This document shows, one piece after another, positions 11,010-49,621 of a stretch of DNA of 64,000 nt. Position numbers and translations under genes: made by a program. The notes under the pieces were generated by a model. It did not search any database. It was given only the letters and a program-made list of their open reading frames with translations, and was not told the origin of the DNA. Source of the DNA: Terasakiella sp. SH-1 (GTDB taxonomy: Bacteria > Pseudomonadota > Alphaproteobacteria > Rhodospirillales > Terasakiellaceae). The stretch covers positions 590,501 through 654,500 of the forward strand of contig NZ_CP038255.1 in NCBI RefSeq assembly GCF_004564135.1. Reading direction: 5' to 3'. Within the stretch, counting starts at the first letter, position 1. Every line of letters begins with the position of its first letter.

Positions 11010-11101
11010 GTTAAGCCCTTCTTTTTAGAGAGTTTAAGCTTGCGTCAAAGGCGTTCCTAAGAGATGTTATAACAAACAAATTTATTGAGGTGGGCACTAT
11101 A

Positions 11102-11986: not shown

Positions 11987-12047
11987 TCTATCTTGAATTC
12001 ATAATCAGGGTACTTACCTCTATGAATGGGATGCTTAAGGAGGTCAT

Positions 12048-13127: not shown

Positions 13128-13130
13128 AAC

Positions 13131-13162
13131 AAAAAAAGGCTCCGCAGATCGGGAGCCTTTTC
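13131..13162. terminator. Bidirectional terminator between the GAF-GGDEF gene and efp
   Basis: The stem ggctcc (13138-13143) pairs with ggagcc (13152-13157). It is flanked by seven A residues on the left and T residues on the right, so it can stop transcripts from both convergent genes. Confidence 0.75.
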
Positions 13163-13184
13163 CGTATCGAATATGTCGCTGTGC

Positions 13185-13754: not shown

Positions 13755-13830
13755 AGCTTGAATATTTCCACAAAAAATAAGACTGAAATCTGGCGCGCAA
13801 CCTAACAGGAAGTGCGCGCAAACGCAATTA

Positions 13831-14448: not shown

Positions 14449-14451
14449 ATC

Positions 14452-15462
14452 TTAAAATCCGGCTTGGGCCATAGCAATGGCGGTATCTGACATGCGGTTG
14501 GAAAAACCCCATTCATTGTCATACCACGACAAGACGCGAACAAAATTGCCATCCATCACGGTGGTTTGTGTCAGGTCAAAGGCCGAAGAATCCGGGTTGT
14601 GGTTATAATCAATGGAGACCAGCTGTACATCATAAGCCCCAAGCACCCCTTTTAAGCGGCCATTGGCAGCCTCAACAATGGCTGTGTTGATTTCTTCCAC
14701 CGTGGTGTCGCGCCCGGCATCAAAGGTTAAGTCGATCAGCGACACATTCGGGGTCGGGACACGAATGGCACAGCCATCCAGCTTACCCGCCAGTTCAGGG
14801 ATGACCAGCCCGGTAGCGCGTGCGGCCCCGGTGGTTGTCGGGATCATGGAAACAGCCCCTGCGCGTGCGCGGCGCATATCACGGTGCAGGGCATCCACCG
14901 TATTCTGGTCCCCGGTATAGGAATGCACAGTTGTCATATAGCCTTTTTTGATTCCCACAAGCTTATGCAGGACATCTGCGACCGGCGCGAGACAGTTGGT
15001 CGTGCAGGAGGCATTGGAAACGATCTTGTGATCTTTGCTCAAAAGGTCATGATTGATCCCGTACACAACAGTGAGGTCAGCATCCTTACCCGGTGCGGAG
15101 ATCAGCACTTTTTTCGCCCCGGCATCCAGATGGGCCTGGGCTTGATCTCTTTCCTTAAATTTTCCGGTGCATTCAAAAACGATATCCACATCCAGCTCTG
15201 CCCAGGGCAGGTTTTTGGGGTCGCTTTCAGAGGTAAATTTAATCACCTTGCCATCAATGGTCATGGAGTCGGCACTGGAAGAGACATCTGCATTTAAGAT
15301 CCCATGGGCAGAATCGTATTTCAGCAGATGGGCATTGCTGTCAACCGGGCCAAGATCGTTGATGGCGACCACGTTGATATCATCACGCTTGTTTTCGATC
15401 ATTGCGCGCAGGCAAAGACGACCAATGCGGCCAAAGCCATTAATTGCTACGCGAAGCGCCAT
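14452..15462 (-). CDS. gap: Type I glyceraldehyde-3-phosphate dehydrogenase
   Basis: The enzyme interconverts glyceraldehyde 3-phosphate and 1,3-bisphosphoglycerate with NAD(P)+, in glycolysis or gluconeogenesis. The 336 residues begin with the Rossmann motif VAINGFGRIGRLCLRA; the catalytic cysteine is C153 in SNASCTTNCLAP, and the C-terminal WYDNEWGFSNRM is present. ATG 15462 is preferred because GGAGG lies 7 bases upstream; an in-frame start at 15474 exists. The tkt and pgk genes that often flank gap in alphaproteobacteria are absent; thiE follows directly. Confidence 0.95.
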   Translation of the reverse strand: MALRVAINGFGRIGRLCLRAMIENKRDDINVVAINDLGPVDSNAHLLKYDSAHGILNADVSSSADSMTIDGKVIKFTSESDPKNLPWAELDVDIVFECTGKFKERDQAQAHLDAGAKKVLISAPGKDADLTVVYGINHDLLSKDHKIVSNASCTTNCLAPVADVLHKLVGIKKGYMTTVHSYTGDQNTVDALHRDMRRARAGAVSMIPTTTGAARATGLVIPELAGKLDGCAIRVPTPNVSLIDLTFDAGRDTTVEEINTAIVEAANGRLKGVLGAYDVQLVSIDYNHNPDSSAFDLTQTTVMDGNFVRVLSWYDNEWGFSNRMSDTAIAMAQAGF

Positions 15463-15649
15463 TGCATCCTCCATAAGGCTCGAAAAAGATTAGGGATTCT
15501 ATAGCATGGAGTCTGAGGGAAAAACCAGAGTCTGATCACTTGTTTTTTACTTTTAAGCTTCTTTCATGGCTTCGGTCTTGCCCAACGGGTAATTTTTTGT
15601 CATTACCTAGGGCTTGGAATTTTCAATTTAACGGCATTGAGGCATTTTC

Positions 15650-16024
15650 TTGTCCGGTCTTGCACAGATTTCACCACGGGTTTTATCCGCTTTTGAGCGA
15701 CTCGAAAAAGCTGTCGAGCGTCTGAACAAGGTGTGCGAGTCGCAGTCTGACAAGGTAGATGCCAGCGAACTGGATATCCTTCAGGCACAGGTGAAAGGAT
15801 TACAAGATGATAATCTGGCCTTGTCTGAAGCACTCGAAGTTCATACGCAGGCCGATTATGATGCTCAGTTCGAACAGCTTAATGACAAGATTATTGCCTT
15901 GAGCGATCAAAACCGTGAACTGGCTGAAAGCAATACTTCGCTTAAAGAAATGAATAGCGGTTTTTCACAGCGTCTGGAAAAGCTGATCGGAAATGTTCAG
16001 CAGGTCTTGCAGGAGGAAGAATAA
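15650..16024 (+). CDS. Small coiled-coil protein encoded before ZapA
   Basis: The 124 residues are almost wholly helical with a coiled-coil heptad pattern from about residue 15 to the end (for example AFERLEKAVERLNKV and FEQLNDKIIALSDQNRELAE). This resembles the DUF4164-type proteins found before zapA in alphaproteobacteria. It begins with TTG at 15650, supported by GAGG 8 bases upstream. Its stop codon overlaps the zapA start as TAATG, so the two are translationally coupled. A role beside ZapA in cell division is inferred from position only. Confidence 0.78.
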   Translation: MSGLAQISPRVLSAFERLEKAVERLNKVCESQSDKVDASELDILQAQVKGLQDDNLALSEALEVHTQADYDAQFEQLNDKIIALSDQNRELAESNTSLKEMNSGFSQRLEKLIGNVQQVLQEEE

Positions 16025-16416
16025 TGGCTTCTGTTGCGATTACGGTGAATGGACGGCGTTATGAAATTGCCTGTGAAGAAGGTCAAGAAGCTCAGCTTGC
16101 GCGTTTGGGGCGTTATGTCGATGAACGGGTGCGTCAGCTGGCTGCAGCCGTTGGGCAATTGGGCGACAGCCGTCTGATGGTGATGACAGCCTTGCTGCTG
16201 GCTGATGAACTCAGTGAAAAGAATAACGAACTGGAAGCTTATAAAGTCGAACATAATGCGTCTGTTCGCGATCGAAAAGAAGAAATTATTGCGGAAAAAC
16301 TAGACCTTATGACAGGGCGAATTGTCAAGATTGCCGAAGCCCTGGAAGGTGAAGAAAGGCTGGATTTAGAGGTTCCGCAAGGTCGCGGCGAAGATGAGGC
16401 GCCAGAAGAGGCGTGA
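16024..16416 (+). CDS. zapA: Cell division protein ZapA
   Basis: ZapA bundles FtsZ protofilaments and stabilises the cytokinetic ring. The 130-residue protein has the typical N-terminal globular domain (VAITVNGRRYEIACEEGQEA, then LGRYVDERVRQLA) and a C-terminal helix that dimerises. The 3' extension is acidic and ends EEA. It is coupled to the upstream coiled-coil gene and followed by the 6S RNA gene and the 5-formyl-THF cyclo-ligase gene, the standard arrangement in this class. Confidence 0.9.
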   Translation: MASVAITVNGRRYEIACEEGQEAQLARLGRYVDERVRQLAAAVGQLGDSRLMVMTALLLADELSEKNNELEAYKVEHNASVRDRKEEIIAEKLDLMTGRIVKIAEALEGEERLDLEVPQGRGEDEAPEEA

Positions 16417-16441
16417 CATTTAATTTAAGAATGACTATATA

Positions 16442-16610
16442 GCGCGGTGTGAGGCTGCGAAGTGCGTAGGTGTTCGTGAGTCCCCGGGGCCAATAACGAA
16501 ACCATAGGGAGCTGTCCCTGTCCACCTCGTGGGGTGGTTACACGGCGCCCACCTGCTTTGGCAGGCCTATGGTGGACCTAGAAAACATCACGGCTTATGT
16601 GGCTTCACCC
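16442..16610 (+). ncRNA. ssrS: 6S RNA
   Basis: 6S RNA mimics an open promoter and sequesters the housekeeping RNA polymerase in stationary phase. The spacer between zapA and the cyclo-ligase gene is the conserved location for it. The ends can pair (gcggtgtgaggc near 16443 with ggcttcacccg near 16601), and the inner part has the typical features GAGTCCCCGGGGCCAATAAC and GGGAGCTGTCCCTGTCCACC. A TATA-like sequence (gactatata) stands just upstream at 16433-16441. Exact ends are estimated to within about 10 bases. Confidence 0.85.
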
Positions 16611-16630
16611 GATTTCTTGATGAGGTACGA

Positions 16631-17188
16631 TTGCCTTCACTGGCTGAACAAAAGGCGCAGTTGCGCAAGGAAATGTCACGCAAGCGCAAAACGCTGGGTG
16701 GACCAGATTATGCGCAACAGGTTGAAGCTCGCTTTTTTTCCTCCCCTACCTTACAGGCTTTCACAAAAATTGCGGGATATTGGCCCATAGCGGGGGAGCT
16801 GGATATCTGCCCGTTGTTAGGCAGCTTGTGCCAGAAAGGGCATATCTGTGCGTTGCCTGTTGTGAAGAAAAAAGACCATCCCTTATGTTTTTTGCGCTGG
16901 CAAACGGGTGATCAGCTGGAAGCTGGTGATCATGGAACACAACAGCCCCAATTCGGTGCTGAGGCTATTGAACCGGATTTAGCGCTGATTCCCTTATTAG
17001 CGTTTGACCGACAAGGTGGGCGACTGGGGTTTGGTGGGGGCTATTATGATCGGACGCTTGCTGCTTTTAAGGGAATGAAAGCGGTCGGGATTGCGTATGA
17101 TGAACAGGAGGTTGAGGCGATTCCGATGGATCGCTTCGATCAAAGAATGGACTGGATTGTCACCCCGACACGGGTTATTGAAGTGTAA
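16631..17188 (+). CDS. 5-formyltetrahydrofolate cyclo-ligase
   Basis: This enzyme (YgfA/MTHFS family) uses ATP to convert 5-formyl-THF to 5,10-methenyl-THF, returning stored folate to one-carbon metabolism. From the chosen start the protein has 185 residues. It has the substrate-site motifs KKDHPLCFLRW and PLLAFDRQGGRLGFGGGYYDR (in two parts), and the C-terminal DWIVTPTRVI. The TTG at 16631 is preferred because GAGG precedes it by 5 bases and the protein begins LPSLAEQKAQLRKEM as in the family. An open frame back to 16529 runs through the 6S RNA and is not taken as coding. Confidence 0.88.
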   Translation: MPSLAEQKAQLRKEMSRKRKTLGGPDYAQQVEARFFSSPTLQAFTKIAGYWPIAGELDICPLLGSLCQKGHICALPVVKKKDHPLCFLRWQTGDQLEAGDHGTQQPQFGAEAIEPDLALIPLLAFDRQGGRLGFGGGYYDRTLAAFKGMKAVGIAYDEQEVEAIPMDRFDQRMDWIVTPTRVIEV

Positions 17189-17212
17189 TCTTCTTATTTA
17201 AAAGGTAGTCAA

Positions 17213-18022
17213 ATGCGTTTTCTTTACTGTGGTGATGTGATGGGCCGGGCCGGGCGCAAGGCAATCTTAGAAGGGGTACCGCAGTTAAAAGATCGTTTGG
17301 GGCTGGATTTTGTTATTGTAAACGGAGAAAATTCAGCCCACGGCTTTGGCATTACGCGTAAAATCTGTGATGCCTTTTATGAGGCCGGAGTGGATGTGAT
17401 TACCACAGGCAATCATGCCTGGGATCAGCGCGAAGTGATGAATTTTATTGATGATGAGCCCCGCTTGCTCCGTCCGCTCAATTATCCGGAAGGCACACCG
17501 GGGCGGGGCTTTCATGTCTATGACATGAGTGATGGCCGCAAGTTTTTTGTCGCTCAGGTGATGGGACGGCTGTTTATGGACCCACTGGATGATCCCTTTA
17601 GTATGATTTCCGCTGTTTTGGATAAGCATGTTTTAGGTCGTGATATTCAGGCTGCTTTGATTGATGTTCATGCCGAAGCCACCAGTGAGAAAATGGCGAT
17701 GGGGCAGTATCTGGATGGCCGCGTCTCTTTGGTGGCGGGAACCCATTCTCATATCCCGACAGCGGATGCACAAATCTTGCCTAAAGGGACGGCCTATCAG
17801 ACTGATGTGGGTATGTGCGGGGATTATGACAGTGTGATCGGTATGGAAAAGACAGTGCCGATTGAACGGTTTACCAAGAAGATCAGTGGCCGTTTGTCTC
17901 CTGCAGATGGCCCCGCCACGCTGTGTGCGGTTTTTGTTGAAACAGACGATGCAACAGGCTTGGCAAAACGAGTCTCGCCTGTTCGGGTCGGTGGCCGCTT
18001 GATTGAGGTTGTGCCGGAGTAA
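17213..18022 (+). CDS. YmdB-family metallophosphoesterase
   Basis: Members of this family (TIGR00282, YmdB) are binuclear-metal phosphoesterases; the Bacillus protein hydrolyses 2',3'-cyclic nucleotides. The 269 residues show the metal-binding motifs GDVMGRAGR (N-terminus), VNGENSAHGFG (about 40-50), TTGNHAWDQRE (about 64-74), DVHAEATSEK and GTHSHIPTAD. There is no signal peptide, so it is cytoplasmic. It lies 24 bases after the cyclo-ligase gene and is probably co-transcribed with it. Confidence 0.88.
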   Translation: MRFLYCGDVMGRAGRKAILEGVPQLKDRLGLDFVIVNGENSAHGFGITRKICDAFYEAGVDVITTGNHAWDQREVMNFIDDEPRLLRPLNYPEGTPGRGFHVYDMSDGRKFFVAQVMGRLFMDPLDDPFSMISAVLDKHVLGRDIQAALIDVHAEATSEKMAMGQYLDGRVSLVAGTHSHIPTADAQILPKGTAYQTDVGMCGDYDSVIGMEKTVPIERFTKKISGRLSPADGPATLCAVFVETDDATGLAKRVSPVRVGGRLIEVVPE

Positions 18023-18034
18023 CCAGAATAAAAT

Positions 18035-18061
18035 GTCATTCTCGGATTTGATACGAGATCC
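18035..18061. repeat. REP-like palindrome, degenerate copy
   Basis: The bases begin gtcattctcgg, pass through a short loop and end cgagatcc, a diverged version of the half-site GTCATTCCCGC...GCGGGAATC seen at 62335. It lies just after the YmdB-family gene. Confidence 0.5.
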
Positions 18062-18120
18062 AGCCTTTCTTTTAAAGCCCTTCTGGAACCTCAATCGAGT
18101 TGAGGGTGACTGTTAATCAT

Positions 18121-18151
18121 AAAAAAGCCCGCCAAAATCGGCGGGCTTTTT
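18121..18151. terminator. Bidirectional terminator between ymdB-like and chemotaxis genes
   Basis: The stem gcccgcc (18127-18133) pairs with ggcgggc (18140-18146), with A residues before and T residues after, serving both convergent genes. Confidence 0.9.
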
Positions 18152-18170
18152 CGTTGTTCCTTTTGGAAGC

Positions 18171-20333
18171 TTAGTTACTGCGGACCTGATGGAGGAACTG
18201 GTTCACAACATCTTTCAGTGATGTTGCTTGCGAGTTCAAACCACTGGAGGCTTCCAGAACCATCTGTGCGGCATTGCCTGTTTCAGCAGCTGCCATATTC
18301 ACATTTTCGATGTTCTTGGTCACTTCAACGGTCCCGTTAGCAGCTTCCTGAACGTTTTTGGAAATTTCTACGGTTGCCGTGCCTTGTTCTTCAACAGCAA
18401 TGGCAATGCTTTCAGAAATATCGTTCATGTTATCAATAGTTTGGGCAATGCTGCCAATCGCGCCAACGGCGTTGCTGGTGGCACTTTGCATCGCATCAAT
18501 CTGTTCGGTGATTTCTGCTGTTGCACGTGCTGTTTGGTCGGCAAGGTTTTTCACCTCACTGGCCACAACCGCGAACCCTTTACCTGCTTCACCTGCACGG
18601 GCCGCCTCAATGGTGGCGTTCAGGGCAAGAAGATTGGTTTGTTCGGCAATAGAGGTAATCAGTTCAACAACCTCACCAACCTTGTTGGCAGCCGAAGACA
18701 GGCTTTCAACTGTGCTGGTGGCTTGTTGGGCTTCGCTCACCGCACCTTTGGCGATATCGCGAGACTGATCAACCTGACGTGAAATCTCAGAAATGGAAGC
18801 TGACAGTTCTTCTGCTGCAGATGCCACGGTCTGAACGTTGCCCGTTGCATGTTCGGCTGCTGAGGCCACCACATTGGACTGTTCAGAGGTTGAGGCCGCA
18901 GTAGAAGACATGCTTTGAGCTGTGTTTTCCATGTCTTGAGCTGCTGTACCAACTGCGGCAACAACACCGGAAACATTGTTTTCGAAGTCATCTGCCATCT
19001 TATGCAGAACGACGCGTTGTTTTTCTTCAGCCTGGCGCTGGTTTTCTTCCTGTTCTTCGCGCAGGCGTTCAACTTCCTGTGCATTTTTGCGGAAAATACG
19101 AAGCGCATCGGCCATTTCACCAACTTCGTCGGCACGAGTGTCGGCCAGAATTTTAACCTCAAGGTTCCCTTCGGCCAGCACATGCATCACTTTGGTCATA
19201 TCGGAAATCGGGTTGGCGATGTTGCGTGCCACGATCAGGCCGATGATAATGACGACAACCAGTGTCAGGCCCGCACCAACAATGATAAAGGTCCGCATGG
19301 TGTGGACACTTTCCAGAACCTCTCCTTGTGACATTTCAGCAACCACGCCCCATGTCAGTCCCATGAATTTCAAGGGAGCATAGGCGGCAAAAACATCATC
19401 GCCTTTATAGTCGGTGGTCTCTGTCAGGCCCGTTTGCCCCAGCAGAACCTGTGTCACGGCATCATTGTCGATTTTTTGTTTCAGGATTGTCTTTTCTTTG
19501 ACGAGACGCAGATCACTGCGCAGGCGCTTGTCTTTACCAATGATATACGTTTCACCCGTTTTGCCAAGGCCACGGGCATTTTGCATTACATGGTCAATAC
19601 TTTTGATCGGCATACGTACCACAAGGGCACCGACAAATTCGTCTTCTTCGTTTTTAACCGGGCTACCCATGAAGCTGGCGGGTTCGTTATTATCTCCAGC
19701 GTAGGCTGCAAAGTCGGTCAGGGTAACATATTCTTCATTGTTTCCATTCGCCTTTATATCTTTGAAAATATTGGCAAAATCAGTATTTTTCCATTTGCCC
19801 TTTTCAAGGTTGGTGGCGAAGTCACCGGATTTAAAAACAGAATAAATTACATTGCCTTTGGCATCTACGATGAACAGATCATGATAATGGCGCGAATGGG
19901 TCAGTGGACGAAACCAGGCATGATAGCGTTCGTGTGTATCGTGATAGGCGTCTTCTGAATCGCCACGCCATAGTTTATCACGTTCCCCTGCCTTATGCGG
20001 GTTGGCTTCGATATATTGTTTTTGCAGGAAGCTTGTCGCATCACCATGTTCAGAACCGATATCTTCAAAATCAACGGCGAGTTCAACAAGGGCGTCTTTT
20101 ACCATCTGGTTGCTGGACAGAATGCCCAAATCCTGGCGGATCCCCTCAAGGAGGTTTTTAATCGTTGCCTTACGGCTGTCGATCAATGTCTGCATGTTCT
20201 CTTCGGCAACAGTCGTCATGTTATCGGCAGATTTGAAATAAGCCAGCATGCCAGTCACCAAAATGGAAACCAGTGATAGCACAACGAGAATTGCAGGAAG
20301 TTTTACTGAGATTTTGACGTTAGACAGAGTCAT
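18171..20333 (-). CDS. Methyl-accepting chemotaxis protein
   Basis: This is a 720-residue transmembrane receptor that signals through CheA/CheW. A first membrane segment at about residues 13-31 is followed by a large periplasmic sensor of the Cache/PDC type (about 35-340; [47 protein letters not shown]). A second segment lies at about 349-369, then a HAMP domain, then the cytoplasmic signalling domain with the hairpin tip [20 protein letters not shown] and [15 protein letters not shown]. The ligand is unknown. The gene is monocistronic, with 360 bases upstream and a terminator downstream. Confidence 0.92.
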
Positions 20334-39189: not shown

Positions 39190-40431
39190 TTACCTCACCA
39201 AAGAATGCACCATGCTGGTCACGGTGATTTTTTCTTCAACCAGTTGGACTTTCATTTTCTCCCAATTGGGCTTTTCTTCTCCAAATGAACTGCGCAACAT
39301 GCGGTTGACCGCATCGCCCAAGGGGCTGGAAGAGGCCAAAGCAACAATGCGGTAATCAATGGTTTTGCTCAGGTTTTTAGGGAGGATCATGCGCCAGCCA
39401 ATCAGACCTTTCTGCATGTCAGCTTCCAGCAAGCCTTCACGGTCAGCCAGCAGGAAATGACCATCTTCCAACCGCTGGGCAAAAGCCCACATATAGGCCG
39501 GTGCGCCCATGTTATTAACGGTGATTTCCAACGCACACAGTCCGTTCAAAGAACTGCTGGGGAAACTGGAGCCATCACGTTGCAGTGGGATTGTATCGGG
39601 GGACTGACAGCCCTTATCGGTATTAGCACGCAGTTCTGAAATGCCGATTTTCAGACTACCTGCACGCAAGGCGATGATATTATCTTCAAACTGCATATAA
39701 AGGCCGACACCCAAGGCGACCAGGCAGAGGCCAAGGGCAATCAGTTTACCCAGACGGTTGTCTTTCAGGGGCGGCGGGGCGTTCGGGTCTGGTTTATAGA
39801 GGTCAATAACCTCGTCATCATCACCCTCGTCTTCATCCTCTTCTGTTTCAGGAAGGGGAGGGGGCAGCTCAAAACGTTGGATAATACGATGAACATCAAT
39901 AAGGGATTCAAGATGGAGAAGATCACCGTCCACACCCAGTTCTTCTAAGAACTCGTCCTCAGGAACCAATCCCGCTCCACTGGGGAGGAAACAAAAAACC
40001 CGGATATTTTGTTCACGCAGCTGTTGGAACAAGGCTTGTGAAGCCAGAAGCTTTTCCTTGATATGATCAACCGGGCGAACTTTCAGGTCTCGGTCCAGCT
40101 CACCCGTGCACCAAAGAACGGTATCAATTTCATCTTCTGGGCCGGCCAGTTCTTCTTCATTTTCCAGAGCATGGGCCACGAAGGCACCAAGTTGCCAGCT
40201 GTTGCCATCGGTAATGACCCGATCTACATCCATACGATAGGAGGGATGAGCGTATGATCGCTGAACCACGCCTGTAGGCTCTTTGACAAAACTGTCATAG
40301 GCGCGTGAAATCGGCAGGGCCTTGGCTGTCCCGTTTAGGCAGACCACGCTGCGCACATCCGGGTCTTCACGGCTGATGCGCTGGATGCAAACCGGGCCTT
40401 CAGTCGTGGCGATATAAACTCTCATGCTCAT
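39190..40431 (-). CDS. Unknown single-pass membrane protein, 413 aa (third gene of coupled operon)
   Basis: I do not recognise this family with certainty. Residues 1-230 look soluble (YIATTEGPVCIQRI, RSVVCLNGTAKALPISRAYD, DTVLWCTGELDRDL). An acidic stretch follows (ETEEDEDEGDDDEVIDLYKP, about 196-215) and one membrane segment at about 229-248 (LIALGLCLVALGVGLYM). The C-terminal 160 residues contain a possible DUF4384-like region (LEDGHFLLADREGLLE, IVALASSSPLGD). The predicted topology is cytoplasmic N-terminus and periplasmic C-terminus. Its start overlaps the previous stop as TGATG, so translation is coupled. Confidence 0.75.
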   Translation of the reverse strand: MSMRVYIATTEGPVCIQRISREDPDVRSVVCLNGTAKALPISRAYDSFVKEPTGVVQRSYAHPSYRMDVDRVITDGNSWQLGAFVAHALENEEELAGPEDEIDTVLWCTGELDRDLKVRPVDHIKEKLLASQALFQQLREQNIRVFCFLPSGAGLVPEDEFLEELGVDGDLLHLESLIDVHRIIQRFELPPPLPETEEDEDEGDDDEVIDLYKPDPNAPPPLKDNRLGKLIALGLCLVALGVGLYMQFEDNIIALRAGSLKIGISELRANTDKGCQSPDTIPLQRDGSSFPSSSLNGLCALEITVNNMGAPAYMWAFAQRLEDGHFLLADREGLLEADMQKGLIGWRMILPKNLSKTIDYRIVALASSSPLGDAVNRMLRSSFGEEKPNWEKMKVQLVEEKITVTSMVHSLVR

Positions 40432-40952
40432 CAGCGCAGAATGACTTCACTTTTCACATTACGCAAGGCTTTGACGATCTCATCATCGCTGAAAAGTAAA
40501 ATTTGTGCTTCGCCGTCAAAAAAATCATCAATGACAAGGCGCAAGATAGGCCCATCTTCCTGTTCAATGAAAAGAAGGTTAAGAGACAATTCGGGATTAT
40601 AGGATTGAATGAGGAGATATACCTGATCCGGATTGGATTTTGAGGGGGTCAGACTGAGCTTGACTTCCTCGTTATCACGCACGACAAGTTCGCCTGAACT
40701 GGCGGCAACAGCACGTGGAATAAAGCTGATTGCCTGTTTGTCCAGTAATCGGCGCAGGTCACGGCGGGTTTTCAGGTTGGTGGATAGGGCGTGGACTAAG
40801 GCTTCTGAGGGGGTATGGGCCGGGTTTGTTGCATACGCATAGAGTTCACTGAAGGTGACGGCTTTTTGGCTTTGCCCATGCCCCATAATCTGGTCCAGAT
40901 CGTTCAGGGCCTTGAAAATCTCTTGGGCCTGTTTGTTTGGGGGATGGGTCAT
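40431..40952 (-). CDS. Unknown soluble protein, 173 aa (second gene of coupled operon)
   Basis: No family is recognised. The first 85 residues are helical and end with the basic stretch KTRRDLRRLLDKQ. The rest is predicted mainly beta strand (GELVVRDNEEVKLSLTPSKS, QVYLLIQSYNPELSLNLLFI, ILRLVIDDFFDGEAQILLF). The beta-rich half could be a small sandwich like those in partner-binding proteins. There is no signal peptide or membrane segment. It overlaps its neighbours by four bases (ATGA) upstream and one base (TGATG) downstream, so the three products are probably made in proportion. Confidence 0.72.
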   Translation of the reverse strand: MTHPPNKQAQEIFKALNDLDQIMGHGQSQKAVTFSELYAYATNPAHTPSEALVHALSTNLKTRRDLRRLLDKQAISFIPRAVAASSGELVVRDNEEVKLSLTPSKSNPDQVYLLIQSYNPELSLNLLFIEQEDGPILRLVIDDFFDGEAQILLFSDDEIVKALRNVKSEVILR

Positions 40953-42580
40953 GACATGCCTCCATAGATTTTACTGAATTGGCCGTTGAACAGGGTGCGG
41001 TCATAGGAAAACTGGGATTGCCAGCCCCCACCGGCGAGAGCCATACAGTCCAGCCGTTCTAAAAAGGCATCAATATCGCGTGCAATGTCTAACAAAAGGT
41101 CAGCCCCTTGGGCAAAGGCGATGCACAGTTCAGGATGTTCGTGCACATCTTCCTTGAAACCTTTGCGTGACAATTTTTTATAAGCGATTTCTGAGGTACT
41201 CATCATTTCGGCGACTTTGGGTCCCACAGCTTGAGGATCGTGCAAGATGCTCATAAAACGATCTGTGATGGCGTTTGTATGAAGTGTGACCACATTTGTA
41301 TCTTTCTCTTTCTCATCAATAAGATGTTGTGCCAGCGAGGAAAAATCAATATCGGGTTCCAGTTTTAACATCACATTGACGGCATCTTTATGGCGGGCTG
41401 TCGCCAAAGCATGAAGACTGGCATAAACGCTACGTTCCAGATGTTGGCGCAAGGACTGATAGGTCATCTGGCGGTCTTGATAGGTTTCATCAGGCCCTTC
41501 GTCGATAAGATTCTGGAGTTCACTTGTCCCGACATGACGGCGCAGGGCCTGTGTCAGTCGTGCCTGTGATCCACTGAAAATATCACTACGCAAAATGGAC
41601 AAGGGCAGGCGCAGGGCCAATGTACCTGCACTGAGGAGCCCCTCAAGATCAGCCTGTTCCTGTTTGTTGAGAAATTTGACCTGATTGAGAGGGCTGGAGG
41701 TAAGCTGCAGTAAAGGAGATAGGGTTTCCTGTACCGAATCGATGGTTTGGGACAGAAGGTCGGGATTGATTTCCCCGGCCTCATGATCATGGCCGATGGC
41801 CCCGGCATTATGCAGGGCAGAGAGGTCGCGCGCACTTTCAATCGCCTGTATGACGCGAATAAAAGTCAGGAGAACGCTGTCAAATGTTTTGAAATCAACG
41901 CCTTTTTCTGGATTCAGGGACGCTTCCTGCCAGAAATTCAGGATCATGGTGTCATCAATATTTTCAACGTCATTTTCACAATAGGCAAGGATCTTGCGAA
42001 ATTTCCGTTGGGACTGAGCCGGGGGCAGGTGGGTGCGAAGATACGCATAGAGCAGGCGGCTTAGATTATTAGCAGCATCTGAGACCGCCTTTTTCGTCGG
42101 AGGGGCTTGGCATAGGAGGTCCTGCAAAATCTCATCAATATCGCTATAGCCAAGGGCGGTCAGTAAAAATTCAAACAAGGCTGATAAGACGGGCATGCGG
42201 CTATATTGAATGGAAAATTCACCATCGGGGTAGGATATGGTTAGTCCTTTGGGCGATAAGCTGACCTGTTCACAGGTGTTTTCAGCTTCTGCCTGACAGC
42301 AATAATGCTGGAAATGGGAGCTTTGGGCAGGGCCGCTATCCCAGAAAAAGAATTCATAGCGCCCTGTCTCTATGGAGAGGTCGCTGGCGGCAACAATAAG
42401 GTGAGACAGTTCCAGCAAGGCGCTGGCATAATTGCGACAGACGATCAGCTTGCCGATTTCACGACAAACCATTGGTGAGAATTTCATTTCACCATCAATC
42501 TCACATTCTGCCATCGTATGTAAGACAGCGCTCAGTTCGTTGCTTTTTCCTGCTTCCAGCAGCAATTCTTCTGATCCCAT
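40949..42580 (-). CDS. Unknown large helical protein, 543 aa (first gene of coupled operon)
   Basis: No known domain is recognised. The protein is predicted almost entirely helical and cytoplasmic, with a cysteine-containing segment at about 90-106 (HYCCQAEAENTCEQ). Leu-rich amphipathic helices follow, for example LYAYLRTHLPPAQSQRKFRK and LERSVYASLHALATARHKDA. There is no signal peptide and no membrane segment. It heads the three-gene coupled operon and lies downstream of two PAS-GGDEF genes on the same strand, 81 bases from the nearer. A scaffold or regulatory role is possible, but no function is proposed. Confidence 0.75.
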   Translation of the reverse strand: MGSEELLLEAGKSNELSAVLHTMAECEIDGEMKFSPMVCREIGKLIVCRNYASALLELSHLIVAASDLSIETGRYEFFFWDSGPAQSSHFQHYCCQAEAENTCEQVSLSPKGLTISYPDGEFSIQYSRMPVLSALFEFLLTALGYSDIDEILQDLLCQAPPTKKAVSDAANNLSRLLYAYLRTHLPPAQSQRKFRKILAYCENDVENIDDTMILNFWQEASLNPEKGVDFKTFDSVLLTFIRVIQAIESARDLSALHNAGAIGHDHEAGEINPDLLSQTIDSVQETLSPLLQLTSSPLNQVKFLNKQEQADLEGLLSAGTLALRLPLSILRSDIFSGSQARLTQALRRHVGTSELQNLIDEGPDETYQDRQMTYQSLRQHLERSVYASLHALATARHKDAVNVMLKLEPDIDFSSLAQHLIDEKEKDTNVVTLHTNAITDRFMSILHDPQAVGPKVAEMMSTSEIAYKKLSRKGFKEDVHEHPELCIAFAQGADLLLDIARDIDAFLERLDCMALAGGGWQSQFSYDRTLFNGQFSKIYGGMS

Positions 42581-42661: not shown

Positions 42662-43645
42662 TTATTCGCTTGTTACCCGGTTGCGTCCGCCTTCTTTGGA
42701 TTGATAAAGCGCTTTATCTGCCCGGCGGAACATGTCATCCAGGCTGTCGCCCTGATGAAAGGTTGTGACACCAAAGCTGCCTGTAACTTTGACTTCATGT
42801 TCACCGCTATGAACGGTGCTTTTTTCAATGAGCTTACGAATGCGTTCGGCAAAGCCAATGGCGCTGTTCAGGTCCGTCTGGGGCAGGGTGACGGCAAATT
42901 CTTCCCCACCGATTCGGGCAAGGTGGCTGTCGTTACTGCGTTCATCACTCATATTCATGTGGCGTGAATGATCATGCCAAAGCGAAACCACCATTTTGAG
43001 GACATCATCCCCGGCATCGTGACCATAACTGTCATTGATTTGTTTAAACCAGTCCAAATCAAAGATAATCAGGCTGAGAGGACAGTTTGTCTCGTGAGCT
43101 TTTTCAAGGGCCTTGCCTGCTTCTTGCATGAAATAGCGGCGATTATAGGCCCCTGTGAGCGGGTCTGTCATGGACAGGCGGACCAATTCACGTTCTTTCA
43201 TGATCAGTTCTGTGACGTCTTGAAGAACGATTTGCACACAATGCAAGCCTTCCCACGGCAGGCGACCAATGCTGATATTCACAATATGACAGCTGCCATC
43301 CTGTGTATGCAATTCAACTTCGGAAAGATTGACCGGGTTGGGATCGTGAAAGGCATTCATAAACAGGGGGAGCAGTCTTTCGCGTAATTCATCGGTCATA
43401 AAGTCAAGCAAGTGTTTCCCCAGCATGTCATCATGACTGGTGTTAAACATGCGGCAGACTTCATTATTGACAAACAGCATGGCTTGGGGCTGATGGATCA
43501 GCAACCCCATGGGGATCACATTTGGCAGAAGGTCCAGCAACGCACCAAGACGTTCTTGTGTATCCATCAAATGTTGTTGAGTCTGTACGGCCTGTTCAGT
43601 GCCGTCGCGGTCATCCCAAAAGAAATCAACCAAGTGCTTATCCAT
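42662..43645 (-). CDS. PAS-GGDEF diguanylate cyclase (copy 1)
   Basis: Residues about 35-150 form a PAS sensor domain (QPQAMLFVNNEVCRMFN, then CVQIVLQDVTELIMKERE). Residues about 155-325 form a GGDEF domain with DPLTGAYNRRYF, IIFDLDWFKQINDSYGHDAG and an intact RIGGEEF active site. Synthesis of cyclic-di-GMP is therefore expected. An RxxD product-inhibition site is not obvious ahead of the active site. The 327-residue protein lacks membrane segments. It is closely similar to the next gene upstream, so the pair arose by tandem duplication. Confidence 0.9.
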   Translation of the reverse strand: MDKHLVDFFWDDRDGTEQAVQTQQHLMDTQERLGALLDLLPNVIPMGLLIHQPQAMLFVNNEVCRMFNTSHDDMLGKHLLDFMTDELRERLLPLFMNAFHDPNPVNLSEVELHTQDGSCHIVNISIGRLPWEGLHCVQIVLQDVTELIMKERELVRLSMTDPLTGAYNRRYFMQEAGKALEKAHETNCPLSLIIFDLDWFKQINDSYGHDAGDDVLKMVVSLWHDHSRHMNMSDERSNDSHLARIGGEEFAVTLPQTDLNSAIGFAERIRKLIEKSTVHSGEHEVKVTGSFGVTTFHQGDSLDDMFRRADKALYQSKEGGRNRVTSE

Positions 43646-43733
43646 CTGTCTAAGAGCTAGGGACAGTAAATTAATAGATCCTGACCCTATAACATATTCA
43701 GTATATATATGAATGCGTTATATTGATAGGTGG

Positions 43734-44699
43734 TTATGCAAATTCTACTCGGTTTCGGCCATTTTCTTTGGCTTGATAAAGGGCCCTGTCAGCCCGTCTG
43801 ATCAGGTCATCCAACTTCTGGTCATCGCCTTGTAAGGACGTTAAACCAAAGCTTGCTGTAATGCTGAAACGGTTGTCTTCAAAAATGATGACTTCATGTT
43901 CAATGGCGCGACGAATACGTTCTGCAATTGCTTTTGCACCTTCTTCATCCACATTGGGCAGATAAATGGCAAATTCTTCCCCGCCAATTCGCGACAGGGT
44001 GCCATCATTTTTGCGGTTATCAAATTCATTATGGCGGGTATTCAGCCGCCAGACTTTTGAAATGATTTTCAGGGCTTCATCACCGGCCAGATGGCCGTAG
44101 GTATCGTTGACCTGTTTAAACCAGTCAATATCAAAAATCATGAGGCTGAAAGGTTTGCCTTCATCCAGGGCATGGGTAATGCATTCTTCGGCATGTTGAA
44201 CGAAATAGCGTCGGTTGTAGGCCCCGGTCAGCACATCATGGAAGGTCAGTTTTTGGAGTTCATCGGCTTGAAGGCGCAGTTCGGTGACATCTTCCAGCAT
44301 GATTTGCACAACACTGGTCCCTTCCCAGGGCAGGCGTGATGCTGTGACCTGAATATAGAGTGTACGCCCGGCAGATTGTTCAAGCTTAATCTCAGGAAAG
44401 CGCACAGGCTCATCACGCATGAAGGTGGTCATGAACAATTCGCTGCATTTTTCCCGCTGGTCTTCTGATACGAAGTCGAGAAAGTGCTTTCCGACAAGAG
44501 TGGTGACGTTTTCATCCAGCAGGTAGAGGGCCTGCTGATTGGCAAACAACATCCCTTGCATTTGGTGGATAATCAACCCCGTTGGCATGAGGTCAAGCAG
44601 AGTGCCCAGTTTTTCTTGGGTGTCAACAAGGGTCTGATGGGTTAAGGCCGCATCACTAGTCCCCTCATTGTCATCAAAGAATAATTCTTCGTTTTCCAT
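43734..44699 (-). CDS. PAS-GGDEF diguanylate cyclase (copy 2)
   Basis: This 321-residue protein has the same layout as its neighbour. An acidic N-terminus (ENEELFFDDNEG) is followed by the shared linker LVDTQEKLGTLLDLMPTGLI, a PAS domain, and a GGDEF domain with LTGAYNRRYFV, IFDIDWFKQVNDTYGHLAG and an intact RIGGEEFAIYL. It is cytoplasmic. It lies 88 bases upstream of copy 1 on the same strand. The N-terminal residues differ most between the copies, suggesting different partners or inputs. Confidence 0.9.
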   Translation of the reverse strand: MENEELFFDDNEGTSDAALTHQTLVDTQEKLGTLLDLMPTGLIIHQMQGMLFANQQALYLLDENVTTLVGKHFLDFVSEDQREKCSELFMTTFMRDEPVRFPEIKLEQSAGRTLYIQVTASRLPWEGTSVVQIMLEDVTELRLQADELQKLTFHDVLTGAYNRRYFVQHAEECITHALDEGKPFSLMIFDIDWFKQVNDTYGHLAGDEALKIISKVWRLNTRHNEFDNRKNDGTLSRIGGEEFAIYLPNVDEEGAKAIAERIRRAIEHEVIIFEDNRFSITASFGLTSLQGDDQKLDDLIRRADRALYQAKENGRNRVEFA

Positions 44700-44773: not shown

Positions 44774-44809
44774 ACAAAAAAGTGAAGGGGGATTTTATTC
44801 TCCCCCTTC
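44774..44809 (-). terminator. Rho-independent terminator of the five-gene envelope operon
   Basis: On the minus strand the stem GAAGGGGGA (44809-44801) pairs with TCCCCCTTC (44792-44784), followed by a run of six T residues (44780-44775). It lies 12 bases beyond the last gene's stop codon. Confidence 0.85.
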
Positions 44810-44820
44810 TAATAAAGCCT

Positions 44821-45369
44821 TTACCAGCCTGATTTATAACCCGGTCCAAAGTCATCGTTTGAACGGTTAACCTGATTGCCCCCTAATTCATCGGAGAGAT
44901 TTTCCCATGTCCCCCGGTTGTGGTGGCGCTCTTCTCTACGATCTTTGCGTCGATTGTCTGCACGTTGTGGGTTACGATCCCAACGGTTGGAGATCAAATA
45001 CCAGGGGACATTATCTTCGCGACAGGCAATTGCCGTCCCATTGAGCCATTTGTTATTGACCATGACGGCATGGCGAAAACGTCGACAATCGCGATCACGG
45101 CGGTCACGCACATCCCCGGTTGGGCGCAAACGGGCGCTGACACCGGCATACCAGTTGGTTGTTAGGCCATTATCTGAGAAAAATAGGGCTTTTTCGATTT
45201 CACTGTTCATTTTGTCTTCATTGGCGCGGCTGATATTTAGGTTCGCCTCTGAGGTCAGGATAGAGCCGATATCTGTGCCATAGACCTCACCGGGGCGCAA
45301 AGACCCTGTTGTTTGACAAGCGCTCAGGACTGTCAGGGCGCATAACCCAAGAAGTGTCTTTTTCATCAT
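44821..45369 (-). CDS. Unknown lipoprotein, 182 aa (last gene of envelope operon)
   Basis: A lipoprotein signal (MKKTLLGLCALTVLSAC, lipobox LSAC) predicts lipid anchoring, probably in the outer membrane. The mature part contains DIGSILTSEANLNISRANED, then a segment with two cysteines (DRDCRRFRH and GTAIACRED) that could pair, and a very Arg/Asn-rich hydrophilic tail from about residue 130. The middle section resembles small surface-antigen or RT0821-type lipoproteins in style, but I cannot assign a family. It begins 17 bases after the transglycosylase gene. Confidence 0.75.
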   Translation of the reverse strand: MMKKTLLGLCALTVLSACQTTGSLRPGEVYGTDIGSILTSEANLNISRANEDKMNSEIEKALFFSDNGLTTNWYAGVSARLRPTGDVRDRRDRDCRRFRHAVMVNNKWLNGTAIACREDNVPWYLISNRWDRNPQRADNRRKDRREERHHNRGTWENLSDELGGNQVNRSNDDFGPGYKSGW

Positions 45370-45386
45370 AACCTCTTTGTTAAAGT

Positions 45387-46592
45387 TTAGCTGTCCCAGC
45401 TCGCAAATGTCTTGGTGTCTTTATGTACACGTGCGAGGTAGGTTTTGGTTTCTGCATAAGGCAGATGGGCTTGCAGATGCTTGTAGATGGCATCGGCATC
45501 CATCTGGTTAATTTTTTGAATGGCAGGGCGGAGTTTCATTTTCCCGGTGAAGGCTTTGGCAACATTGCCTGCTCCGGTGTTATAGGCGGAAATCACCAGA
45601 TATTGCCGGGCGGTTTCATTGGTTACTTTGCCGAAATAGCGGGTGTTGAGCAAATGAAGGTAAGTTGCCCCCAACATGATATTTTCATAGGGGTCATATA
45701 AAACATCCGGCCCCGGTGTAGCTTCGTGCCCCAAAAGATAGCTATAGGCTTCTTTTCCGCCGCTGGTGGCAACCAGTTGCATCAGCCCCATGGCATTGGC
45801 GTGGGAACGTGCACGGGGGTTAAAAGAGCTTTCGTTTTTGATCACCGACAGGATCAGAGAGCGGGGCAGCATATATTTTTGTGCGGCTTCCAAAATCGGA
45901 CCGCGCAGGGCCTGTGCGCTCAGTTGATCGCGGTTTTTGCGCAAGGGAATCGTGATACGGGAAAGCTGGGCACGTTTGCCTTTGCTTAACGCCACATTGC
46001 GTTTGATAAATTTGGGGCGTACACGTGGGGCAACTAATGTGGAGAGTTCGCGTGGGCGTTTCCATTGAATGGTGGCGTCTTGTTTGGGGCGCTTCCAGCT
46101 GCTGCGTGGGCGTTTTTCACGGGGCTGGTCTTGAACAATATTTTCCTGGCGTTGCCAGAACTGGTCGGATTTTTCTTTCAGTTTTTTGCGCAGTAAGGCA
46201 CGTTCGTCCAACTGGCTGCTGTCTTCCATGAGAATTTCCTGAAAGTCCCCGAAAAGGTCCTTTTCTTCCTTATCAAGACCTTCGATGGACATTTCCCCGC
46301 GTTCATAATCCACAATAATCCGGCTGGTTTTATCCTTGTTATAGCCAACCCAGACTTTGGGTTCGGGCAGTTGGCGACTGTCCCCCCAGATGTCGGCCAG
46401 CTCACGGTCCAGTTCTTCAACTCCTTCACGCAAGGCTTTATCAAAGGCTGCATCTGTTTTTTGGAAGGTTTGTTCAAACTGGCTATCTATTTTATCCAGC
46501 CAGTCTGCTTGTGCCCAGCCTAGTGCAGGGATAGCGACTGCGCAAGCAAGGGTGCCACAAAGTAAACGATATGAAAAACGGGAACGCGTCAT
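45387..46592 (-). CDS. MltC-like lytic transglycosylase
   Basis: This enzyme cleaves peptidoglycan glycan strands with formation of 1,6-anhydro-muramyl ends. The signal peptide (LLCGTLACAVAIPALGWAQA) lacks a lipobox, unlike E. coli MltC. Residues about 30-125 match the N-terminal DUF3393-type domain of MltC (WGDSRQLPEPKVWVGYNKDK), followed by a basic linker. The SLT domain starts near residue 230: LSVIKNESSFNPRARSHANA contains the catalytic glutamate in KNESSF, then GLMQLVATSGG and YLVISAYNTGAGNVAKAF. It is the only gene of the operon with a clear enzymatic activity. Confidence 0.88.
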   Translation of the reverse strand: MTRSRFSYRLLCGTLACAVAIPALGWAQADWLDKIDSQFEQTFQKTDAAFDKALREGVEELDRELADIWGDSRQLPEPKVWVGYNKDKTSRIIVDYERGEMSIEGLDKEEKDLFGDFQEILMEDSSQLDERALLRKKLKEKSDQFWQRQENIVQDQPREKRPRSSWKRPKQDATIQWKRPRELSTLVAPRVRPKFIKRNVALSKGKRAQLSRITIPLRKNRDQLSAQALRGPILEAAQKYMLPRSLILSVIKNESSFNPRARSHANAMGLMQLVATSGGKEAYSYLLGHEATPGPDVLYDPYENIMLGATYLHLLNTRYFGKVTNETARQYLVISAYNTGAGNVAKAFTGKMKLRPAIQKINQMDADAIYKHLQAHLPYAETKTYLARVHKDTKTFASWDS

Positions 46593-46597
46593 AGGCT

Positions 46598-47431
46598 TTA
46601 ATCCAGTGCGACAATCATGCGGCCTTGCTTGACAGCATCCAGAGTGCGGATTTTATCGCTATCGTTATTGGAGACAACGATCTGGTTTTCCGCTGTGATG
46701 CGCAGGGCTTTGATGATTTTGGGGCTTGGGCCGCTGATCTCCAGTTGTTTGGCTTTTTCAACAGACTTGGCATAGTGGATCAGGCCCTTATCGACAATTG
46801 TGTTTTCTGCAACGGTATCTTGGGAATAAATGATGGTCCCGCTTTCATTGACCACTTCCGGGCTCAGTGCAGGCAGATACATGGCTTGTTCCAGATCAAT
46901 AATCACGGCACTTGTGTCTGTGGAAGGCGGTGTTTTTTGTGTTGTAGGGGAGGATTTAAGGCCAAGGGTCGCTTTGGTCAGGTTTTCAGGTGTGGCCTGA
47001 CAGGTCGGGGAAATACAGACCCGCAAGGTCACTTCGGCCATCACAACTTCGCCACGGCGGCTGGATTTGTCTTTATGCCAGCTGATTTTTTCATCAATGG
47101 TTTGTGCCCCTTTCAGGGTGCCTTTAATGCGTGTTGCTGCACGGGTGTCTCCTGCGCCATGTGTGCCAATGGTGGTTAAGCCGGTTAGACGAATGCCTTT
47201 AATCGTTTCCAGCAGGCGGGCCTGTGCAGTGGTACGTGCGGCCTGTTTGGCCATGAGTTCTTCTTGAATGCGATTGCCCATATAGCGTGATGTGCCTTGC
47301 CCGGTGGCTTCAACGTAGCCTTCAGACCAGTCTGTCAGGGCATGCTTGCCTGCTTCAACCCAGCCGTCTTGGGCAAGGGCAAGGCAGGAAAAGGCCATGG
47401 TAAAGGCGGCTGTGATCAACGGCAATTTCAT
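46598..47431 (-). CDS. Exported LPP20/FlgP-like protein
   Basis: A signal peptide ends at about residue 20 (FSCLALAQDG). The N-terminal half has the LPP20-type pattern: a glycine-containing strand with VEATGQGTSR, then the helix MAKQAARTTAQARLLETIKG and a strand with GIRLTGLTTIG. Two cysteines lie in RVCISPTCQA. The C-terminal half is beta-rich. FlgP of Vibrio and Campylobacter flagellar outer rings belongs to the same superfamily. There is no lipobox here, so the protein should be free in the periplasm. It ends 5 bases before the transglycosylase start. Confidence 0.65.
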   Translation of the reverse strand: MKLPLITAAFTMAFSCLALAQDGWVEAGKHALTDWSEGYVEATGQGTSRYMGNRIQEELMAKQAARTTAQARLLETIKGIRLTGLTTIGTHGAGDTRAATRIKGTLKGAQTIDEKISWHKDKSSRRGEVVMAEVTLRVCISPTCQATPENLTKATLGLKSSPTTQKTPPSTDTSAVIIDLEQAMYLPALSPEVVNESGTIIYSQDTVAENTIVDKGLIHYAKSVEKAKQLEISGPSPKIIKALRITAENQIVVSNNDSDKIRTLDAVKQGRMIVALD

Positions 47432-47503
47432 CAGGGTTTCCTCAAACGGGCTGGAAGGTTTAGGGGCGGGGAAGAGTGGGACCCTTCCCCAAAGAAGGGC
47501 TGC

Positions 47504-48490
47504 TTACCACTTACTGCCATCGTTATAATAACGGCTGCGGCGTTTGTTCACTTTGGAAATGTTGAATTCCTTGCCCTGATAACGTACCCGGCCAGACATG
47601 CCGAGATATTCAAGCGCACGCACCAGATTGCGTTTCAACTTGGCCGTATGCAGGCGTGTTTTATAGACATATTCGTGGGTGCGCCCGTGAGAGCCTGCTG
47701 GGCGGTGATCCACATAACAGGAAAATTTCGCCAGAATGACATCTTCGATATCCAGCATTTCCTGTTCTGTGAAGTTTTGGAAGTTGAGGAAAACATCCTG
47801 AACACGGCCACGACAACCATCATTTCCACGGCGGCGCGCCATATCTTTGGTGGAACCGTTGCCATAGCCATCGCGATCATCATAATCGTCACGGTCATCA
47901 TAGCCGTAGTCAACTTCATCGCCCAGTTTCTGGACCAGAACATCGGCCACATCACGGGCCAGCAGGCGGGCATTATCCCCGACAGTTTCCAAAATACATT
48001 CGCGATTACAATTGACCGGGGCACGGAAGTTACGCGGGGAAGAAACTTCAAAGTTCCCCATGCGGCGACCGGAATGGACATCAAGGAGACGACCGGACAA
48101 ACGGGTGCGAACCTTGGTGGTATAATCCAGACGTTCTGCGCTGGCATAAATTTCAAAAAGAACGACAATATCAATGGGTGGGCGGGTGATAGAACGGGCC
48201 ACATCAATCAGTTCTGCATCGCTGCGCCGTGAACGCCCTTGCGCATAATCATCCAGTGAGACAGCCGTTTCATCATAGACATCAAAGCCATCGGCATTCA
48301 TGGCTTCGGCCAGTTCGTTCAGGACACGGCGAAAAACACGACTGTCACGCGGAATGGCATCTTGGTCATTATCTTCACCCATGATCATCAGATAAGGCAG
48401 TTCGGCTGCCTGTGATTTGTTTGACAGCAGGACGGTTGCACATAGCAAGCTGAAGGCTGCAATCATGAAGGTTGTGGTCAGGCGTTTCAT
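47504..48490 (-). CDS. Exported protein with a possible CsgG/TolB-N-like domain, 328 aa
   Basis: A signal peptide ends near residue 28 (SNKSQAAELP). The next 170 residues alternate strands and helices (LPYLMIMGEDND, FRRVLNELAEAMNADGFDVY, IDIVVLFEIYASAERLDY, ARDVADVLVQKLGDE), a pattern typical of CsgG/LpoB/TolB-N-type periplasmic domains. An Asp/Gly/Tyr-rich linker (about 205-225) leads to a second domain with cysteines in NDGCRGR and KFSCYVDH, which could form a disulfide. Cysteines also occur in VNCNRECIL. I cannot name the family. It begins 24 bases after the FlgT-like gene. Confidence 0.65.
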   Translation of the reverse strand: MKRLTTTFMIAAFSLLCATVLLSNKSQAAELPYLMIMGEDNDQDAIPRDSRVFRRVLNELAEAMNADGFDVYDETAVSLDDYAQGRSRRSDAELIDVARSITRPPIDIVVLFEIYASAERLDYTTKVRTRLSGRLLDVHSGRRMGNFEVSSPRNFRAPVNCNRECILETVGDNARLLARDVADVLVQKLGDEVDYGYDDRDDYDDRDGYGNGSTKDMARRRGNDGCRGRVQDVFLNFQNFTEQEMLDIEDVILAKFSCYVDHRPAGSHGRTHEYVYKTRLHTAKLKRNLVRALEYLGMSGRVRYQGKEFNISKVNKRRSRYYNDGSKW

Positions 48491-48514
48491 TCTATTCCCC
48501 TAAAATAAAAGCAA

Positions 48515-49621
48515 TTATTCAAACATTGGATCATCAAATTGATACGTCAGGTTGCGGCCCTTTATCCTGAACTCAAATGGAATATCCTGAGAACTCAGCA
48601 AGCTGGATATTTCTGTGTTCAAGGTTGAAGGTTTCAACAAAGACCAATAGGAAAGGGTTAGGGCATTTTTTTTCTGCCCTGCCAATTTATGGCGCACATA
48701 ACCGCTGAGGTTTGCCAGATCCGTTTCAAGATATTTGATGGTTTTTGCATCAAATTTTGAAAAATGGATCTCGTAGCGCTGTCCCTCTTCATAGACTTCT
48801 TTTTTGATGTTTTTGATTAAGGCCGCAGCGACTTGGGCACTGGGGCCATAAATATGATCTTTGGCTTCATTAATAATGGCGGCACGATTATTTTTTTCAT
48901 CGCGTGTCCAGTTTGCCATGTCGAAATTGATTTCTTCGCGTGCAAGGGAGCGATTGCTGGCAACGTCAAGGCTTTCCAAACGTAGAACATAAGGTGCGTT
49001 GCGGCCTTTAAGGATTTCAACAAAGATAATGAAATTGGCCTTGGCTCGCCTTGCCCGTTTCAGGTTGTTTTTACGGTCTGTATGGCGGTAGTGATCTCGT
49101 CCGGCCTGACGTGTGGCTTCAAAGTCCAGTGTTTCGAAACGAAAGTCTTCGCGTAACGTGCTTTCAACACTTTCTGTTAAGAGGCGGAAATCATCACTCA
49201 GGCTGGAGATCGAATCAAAATCTTCGTCCAGACCTGCGACCAAAACCCGTGGGTGTGCAGCCATTTTCATCAGGGTGGACAGGGCCTCTGTACTGTCTTC
49301 CAATGATTTTTCATCAACTTCGGCATCAATGGTGATATCAACCATACCACTGGGATCAACCGTTTTGTGAAGGACTTTATAGGAACGCACAAACCCTTTT
49401 GTATGGCTCAGGATTTGTTGGCGCACGACCTGAAAGTTTTCAACCAGTGTATTGTTTTCAATGGATGTTCCCAAGCTCATTTCCACGGCTTGACGCAGGG
49501 CATTGTTCAGGGCCTGACGCTGGTTACTGCCTTGGGCACTGACTTCAATAGCCTGTGTACTGTAAAGGGGGAGCAGGGTTAAAAGTGCGGCTGTGGGCAA
49601 CAAAAGAAAAGGGCGTTTCAT
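48515..49621 (-). CDS. Exported protein with FlgT-like N-terminal domain, 368 aa
   Basis: After a signal peptide ending near STQA, residues about 25-110 match the pattern of the FlgT N-terminal domain: VSAQGSNQRQALNNALRQAV, then LVENFQVVRQQILSHTKGFV and RSYKVL with a beta strand pair. FlgT is part of the periplasmic H ring of Vibrio flagella. A middle alpha/beta domain (about 125-245; PRVLVAGLDEDFDS, RRAKANFIIFVEILKG) and a C-terminal domain (about 260-368) follow. It is the first gene of the five-gene operon. Full FlgT function is not shown by the sequence. Confidence 0.7.
   Translation of the reverse strand: MKRPFLLLPTAALLTLLPLYSTQAIEVSAQGSNQRQALNNALRQAVEMSLGTSIENNTLVENFQVVRQQILSHTKGFVRSYKVLHKTVDPSGMVDITIDAEVDEKSLEDSTEALSTLMKMAAHPRVLVAGLDEDFDSISSLSDDFRLLTESVESTLREDFRFETLDFEATRQAGRDHYRHTDRKNNLKRARRAKANFIIFVEILKGRNAPYVLRLESLDVASNRSLAREEINFDMANWTRDEKNNRAAIINEAKDHIYGPSAQVAAALIKNIKKEVYEEGQRYEIHFSKFDAKTIKYLETDLANLSGYVRHKLAGQKKNALTLSYWSLLKPSTLNTEISSLLSSQDIPFEFRIKGRNLTYQFDDPMFE

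Follow-up and report, generated by a model that had tools for sequence, protein, structure and literature searches.

Which envelope structure would be built by a set of exported proteins that resemble the outer rings of the flagellum and are encoded together with their own peptidoglycan-cleaving enzyme? This question is raised by a gene unit of the marine bacterium Terasakiella sp. SH-1, which lies in an analysed stretch of 64,000 nucleotides (hereafter, the window) of a single-contig genome of 3.83 Mb. The initial annotation of this unit described an uncharacterised alphaproteobacterial envelope assembly and offered three functions for it: a flagellar ring, a secretion portal or a peptidoglycan-remodelling device. 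Here, the five exported-protein genes are labelled A to E, and three downstream companion genes of the Terasakiella window are labelled H, I and J.

Results

Organization of the gene unit

The genes A, B, C, D and E form, in this order, one minus-strand unit (44821-49621) in which each open reading frame starts with ATG and the intergenic gaps A/B, B/C, C/D and D/E measure 24, 72, 5 and 17 bases, respectively. A (48515-49621) encodes a 368-aa protein, B (47504-48490) a 328-aa protein, C (46598-47431) a 277-aa protein, D (45387-46592) a lytic transglycosylase and E (44821-45369) a 182-aa lipoprotein; ordinary signal sequences are present at the N-termini of A to D, and E carries instead the lipobox LSAC. 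On the 3' side of E, the unit is closed by a minus-strand terminator hairpin (44784-44809; GAAGGGGGA...TCCCCCTTC, ACTTTTTTG) with a 9-bp perfect stem and a T-rich tail, and a separate terminator (49810-49779) closes the cytochrome c gene that lies upstream of A. A hairpin scan returned 15 hairpins vs 14 expected from shuffles, and our trust is therefore limited to these two strong gene-end hairpins. The layout that had been described, with five open reading frames separated by 5-72 bases, a closing terminator, five exported products and a lipoprotein as the last of them, is borne out in full.

The order A-B-C-D-E and its neighbourhood are kept in all six Terasakiella genomes, with protein identities of 54-88% and with B as the most conserved of the five; this conservation of order exceeds chance expectation. 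The five genes were correctly grouped in the initial annotation, which missed the companions H, I and J (39190-42580) that accompany them in Terasakiella, where one contig stops within I. All three lie on the minus strand: H (40949-42580) encodes a 543-aa predicted cytosolic protein; I (40431-40952), between H and J, a 173-aa predicted cytosolic protein; and J (39190-40431) a 413-aa protein in which a single membrane segment near residues 226-249 follows a cytosolic N-terminal part and precedes a predicted periplasmic C-terminal part. In other genomes, H accompanies B-like genes. The interval between E and H holds, in the window, a tandem pair of PAS-GGDEF diguanylate cyclase genes (42662-44699) as a variable insertion; across Terasakiella, this spacing contains 0 to 2 such genes (none in Terasakiella brassicae), and we dropped them as members of the unit because of this variation in copy number within one genus. 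We also rejected an anti-phage defence role, PADLOC having given no match for A to E or H to J.

Domain structure of the exported proteins

The predicted model of A (six sequences; pLDDT 60.6, a moderate to weak confidence) has the three-domain N-M-C fold of FlgT (3W1E), with a FlgP/LPP20-type N-terminal domain (residues ~25-120), a TolB-N-like middle domain (~125-275) and a C-terminal domain (~281-361) of beta-alpha-beta-beta-alpha-beta topology. Among 350,542 PDB chains, its best fold match is the LPHT ring (8z5n_0; E 2.1e-7) and its second best is FlgT (3w1e; E 3.7e-7), in alignments that span ~396-399 columns, nearly the full length, with low global TM-scores of 0.24-0.27; TolB and LpoB rank below these two. 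The Pfam FlgT_N domain scores below its gathering threshold in the A of the window (15.0 vs 28.8 bits; E 0.035), is found in 23 of the 25 close relatives of A (best E 6.9e-5) and passes the cut-off in a distant relative from genome G1080 (50.2 bits). We regard A as a predicted FlgT-like protein whose nearest solved relative is Vibrio FlgT, and the FlgT-like N-terminal domain that had been noted is supported weakly by sequence and more clearly by fold.

B is composed of a domain resembling TolB-N, CsgG, GNA1162 and the FlgT middle domain (~33-192), a low-confidence linker (193-225) and a C-terminal domain (231-313). Its model (18 sequences; pLDDT 73.6) matches GNA1162, CsgG, FlgT and PelC, which confirms, at the level of predicted structure, the CsgG/TolB-N-style fold originally assigned to it. 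At the sequence level, no Pfam family, CsgG and TolB-N included, matched B at E below 1, a PDB profile search with 27 sequences gave nothing significant, and a lipobox is absent; on these search results, identity of B with FlgO was rejected. The models of A and B are alike in the outline of their last two domains, and B-like proteins are weakly found by the profile of A.

C consists of a FlgP-like domain (~38-140) and a C-terminal domain (~176-277) with similarity to part of Treponema Tp0624. A profile built from six sequences gave no significant match; with the Desulfovibrionia relatives described below (23 sequences), the profile matches FlgP of the LPHT ring (8z5n_2; E 8.1e-10) and other FlgP-type lipoproteins (9hmf, the best, at 4.2e-10; 9yec, 9yfg and 9yds), and its C-terminal part matches Tp0624 (E 7.2e-6). 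No gap interrupts the alignment of C with FlgP in the segment that joins the first helix to the strand after it, where FlgP has its ring-forming hairpin; by profile comparison, C has an SHS2-like FlgP domain that includes this hairpin region. According to PMC12222027, Lpp20, FlgP and FlgT have a common fold, and ring formation in the family is associated with an insert at this position. The LPP20-like fold first proposed for C is supported through these FlgP matches; the Pfam LPP20 domain itself was found in one of the 23 C-family members (E 0.2), and C has no lipobox and therefore does not share the outer-membrane lipoprotein character of FlgP and LPP20. In a single-protein search, C was found, among 100 relatives, in Terasakiella only.

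D contains an Mltc_N domain (52-110; 24.7 bits vs a cut-off of 22.6) and an SLT domain (233-353; E 1.4e-25) with Glu254 (codon at 45831-45833, minus strand) in the motif NESSFNPRA...GLMQ, which is invariant in seven of seven sequences; we take this residue to be the catalytic Glu of known SLT enzymes. The best NCBIfam model for D is MltC (E 9.7e-47), yet the score is 159.8 bits vs an equivalog cut-off of 375 and a lipobox is absent; D is an MltC-like transglycosylase, as annotated, outside the lipid-anchored MltC equivalogs. E has Gln at position +2, and no known domain was found in it apart from the lipid attachment site.

Relatives outside Terasakiella

Among 289 alphaproteobacterial genomes, close relatives of A occur only in Terasakiella, and full-length close relatives are present in ~19 of 199 Desulfovibrionia genomes. 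Sixteen Desulfovibrionia genomes have the arrangement B, A, a TPR/SLH lipoprotein, C, a YhdP-like protein, a beta-helix/TPR protein and SpoIID. Cleavage of glycan strands by a SpoIID homologue has been demonstrated (PMC6635528). In one genome (G489, locus L161), a second copy comprises A, two other genes, C and D, and this D aligns with Terasakiella D from end to end (237 bits), with Mltc_N and SLT both present. Between A and C at locus L161 lies a gene (11899-15039) whose 1046-aa product has an extended array of GGDDAxL repeats. Comparison of the Terasakiella and Desulfovibrionia gene sets indicates that, in both phyla, A, B and C have stayed linked to an enzyme that cuts glycan strands. All five genes remain together in Terasakiella; outside this genus, E is not retained. 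The alphaproteobacterial scope initially given to the assembly was accordingly too narrow, the A-B-C core being conserved in Desulfovibrionia with looser relatives elsewhere. SLT and SpoIID substitute for each other in the gene set, and the occurrence of two unrelated glycan-strand cutters in the same place suggests that wall cleavage is part of its job.

More widely, the profile of A detects FlgT-like proteins of ~400 aa in 79 of 297 Desulfobacterota and in some Pseudomonadota. These looser relatives adjoin a C relative and a TPR protein at four loci (L205, L211, L213 and L214) and a D-like SLT protein at a fifth (L216). The profile of B reaches other alphaproteobacteria, Alteromonadales, Desulfovibrio and a Marinimicrobia MAG, where the B relatives mostly occur with OmpA-, DUF4384-, caspase-like, SLT, H-, I- or J-like genes; flagellar genes were not recognised in this larger B-containing system. 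H, I and J link the Terasakiella locus to this uncharacterised system with its OmpA, SLT and caspase-like genes. In a B tree, the Terasakiella and Desulfovibrionia proteins fall into one neighbourhood (SH-aLRT 85), which we do not count as proof because a few sequences from A-less loci lie inside it and the tree was a quick one only.

A second, larger system of this kind is present in the same Terasakiella genome (locus L048, C1:284501-304500, at 7098-19227), with relatives in Alteromonas and other alphaproteobacteria. It contains genes for a caspase-like protein, a B-like protein, a small membrane protein, SLT, H, I, J (whose relative here contains DUF4384), a coiled-coil protein, a 171-aa membrane protein, a protein with a Pro/Lys-rich linker that resembles TonB or TolA, and lipoproteins. 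The 171-aa protein is present in all six Terasakiella genomes and has a MotA/TolQ-like appearance; its identity as TolQ was judged by eye only and is unproved (Pfam E 0.78, in one member), PADLOC gave only ZorA at E 0.0056, and PDB profile matches to elastase are spurious. This system may be an undescribed ion-driven envelope machine. Methylobacterium and relatives (L073-L111) have a conserved cluster that lacks A, C and E and in which B-like genes mostly accompany H, I, J, OmpA-like and caspase-like genes. In a Hahellaceae MAG (L064) and Aestuariibacter (L068), consecutive B-like paralogues are interspersed with genes that, by eye, are apparent protein kinases and phosphatases.

Discussion

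We give about an even chance to the reading in which A to E are a non-flagellar envelope module that builds a ring or portal and brings its own wall-cutting enzyme; the assembly of a ring is an inference from the folds. A FlgT/FlgP-type domain carries a hairpin that makes subunits join into rings, and the TolB-N/CsgG-like domain serves in periplasmic docking. In the proposed mechanism, the five products would interact in a ring or collar at the outer membrane and peptidoglycan: A and C would join into rings through the hairpins of their FlgT/FlgP-type domains, B would dock to A through the domains common to both, D would make a local opening in the wall for the seating of the ring, and E would tether the assembly to the outer membrane. 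At the inner membrane, the machine may end in J together with the cytosolic H and I.

This module probably belongs to a machine other than the flagellum; it would be a relative, and not a component, of the flagellar H ring, and would work independently of the flagellum in Terasakiella itself. The first alternative, which we consider unlikely, is that A to E form an accessory ring of Terasakiella's flagellar motor, with A as FlgT, C as FlgP, B in the position of FlgO, D as a flagellum-specific transglycosylase and E as a lipoprotein anchor. A and C resemble two proteins of a single Vibrio ring complex, and the order A-B-C corresponds by fold to that of the consecutive flgT, flgO and flgP of Vibrio fischeri (VF_1885, VF_1884 and VF_1883; PMC3948606), although B has no Pfam FlgO match. 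H-ring homologues are moreover known in the alphaproteobacterium Cereibacter sphaeroides (PMC13023049). Against this assignment, no flagellar genes were recognised at any locus examined in Terasakiella or Desulfovibrionia, so that A lacks the flagellar gene context of FlgT. The genome of the window is flagellated, and ~1.7 Mb separate FlgH (2.32 Mb) from the unit (0.64 Mb); on long Desulfovibrionia contigs, the distance between A and FlgH is likewise large (e.g. 2.62 Mb for A vs 1.13 Mb for FlgH in G461).

Within the close family, co-occurrence with flagella carries little weight either way. The 25 genomes that encode close relatives of A (6 Terasakiella and 19 Desulfovibrionia) all contain FlgH, so a flagellar ring keeps some probability for the close family. 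As a test in Desulfovibrionia, this association was discarded as uninformative because flagella are near-universal in that background (FlgH in 19 of 19 A-positive vs 35 of 40 A-negative genomes); A is, in turn, absent from most of the flagellated Desulfovibrionia sampled. To our knowledge, every flagellar export gate includes FlhA, and FlhA was not found in 27 of 54 genomes with confident, mostly distant A relatives, an absence that exceeds what MAG incompleteness readily explains, although completeness is not given for most of the FlhA-free genomes. These genomes hold only the more distant A relatives, which are neighbours of C in two of them (G1080 and G1022), and FlgH was not found in two genomes that carry the wider B family (G215 and G387). 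Among the three functions first offered, the flagellar ring thus becomes less likely, given A- and C-like pairs without FlhA and no flagellar genes nearby. A gene set kept in other phyla, with looser relatives of its ring proteins in genomes where no flagellar export gene was detected, suggests that the product may be a wall-crossing machine and not a flagellar part.

It is quite improbable, in our view, that A, B and C act without forming a ring, as LpoB/TolB-like adaptors that localise or activate D in peptidoglycan remodelling for growth or division. LpoB activates or localises a wall synthase in this manner; both LpoB and TolB appear among the fold matches to A, an A-like protein at L216 has a weak LpoB match (E 0.04), and a transglycosylase or SpoIID is usually nearby. 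The best matches of A and C are, however, ring-forming flagellar proteins and not LpoB or TolB, and the ring hairpin region is kept in C. A CsgG/PelC-type outer-membrane export portal, in which B would oligomerise into a pore and D would clear the wall, is very improbable, for although CsgG, PelC and GNA1162 are fold neighbours of B, this protein has no lipobox, no CsgG family match and no conserved substrate gene beside it.

The folds are known, and the predicted structures and profiles agree with the analogies to FlgT, FlgP and CsgG/TolB-N drawn at the outset. The FlgT and FlgP families come closest; the unit falls outside them by its gene context, by the missing lipobox of C and by the low FlgT_N score of A. 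The unit shares with the Vibrio H ring/LPHT ring (3w1e, 8z5n) the three-domain layout of A and the FlgP domain with hairpin region of C; unlike that ring, it has no flagellar neighbours, a C with an extra domain and without a lipobox, a B that sequence searches do not identify as FlgO, a dedicated transglycosylase alongside a lipoprotein, and looser relatives of its ring proteins in FlhA-free genomes. D resembles MltC and the SLT family in its SLT domain, catalytic Glu, Mltc_N and best NCBIfam match, and differs from MltC in lacking a lipobox, in scoring below the equivalog cut-off and in being a fixed partner of A to C. The predicted fold of B and of the middle domain of A is that of CsgG, TolB-N, PelC and GNA1162, whereas the absence of sequence matches to those families and of a lipobox and the extra C-terminal domain set B apart. 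The C-terminal domain of C corresponds to residues 136-261 of Tp0624 (PDB 5jir; E 7e-6), which runs on into an OmpA-like domain, whereas C starts with a FlgP-like domain. Our literature search, which covered few subscription journals, found no paper describing the A-E gene set, in keeping with its initial description as uncharacterised.

The outer rings of polar flagella (H ring and basal disk) are commonly regarded as late additions to the flagellum. We tentatively suggest, as a possible but rather doubtful extension, that a family of non-flagellar trans-envelope machines in at least two phyla, with FlgT/FlgP-type rings passing through peptidoglycan that a dedicated transglycosylase has opened, was the source of the flagellar H ring and basal disk. 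The presence of two ring folds and a wall cutter in one conserved set, together with the FlhA-free pairs, makes the origin of the flagellar rings testable, and the gene set itself points to a wall-crossing machine that is, as far as we have found, undescribed.
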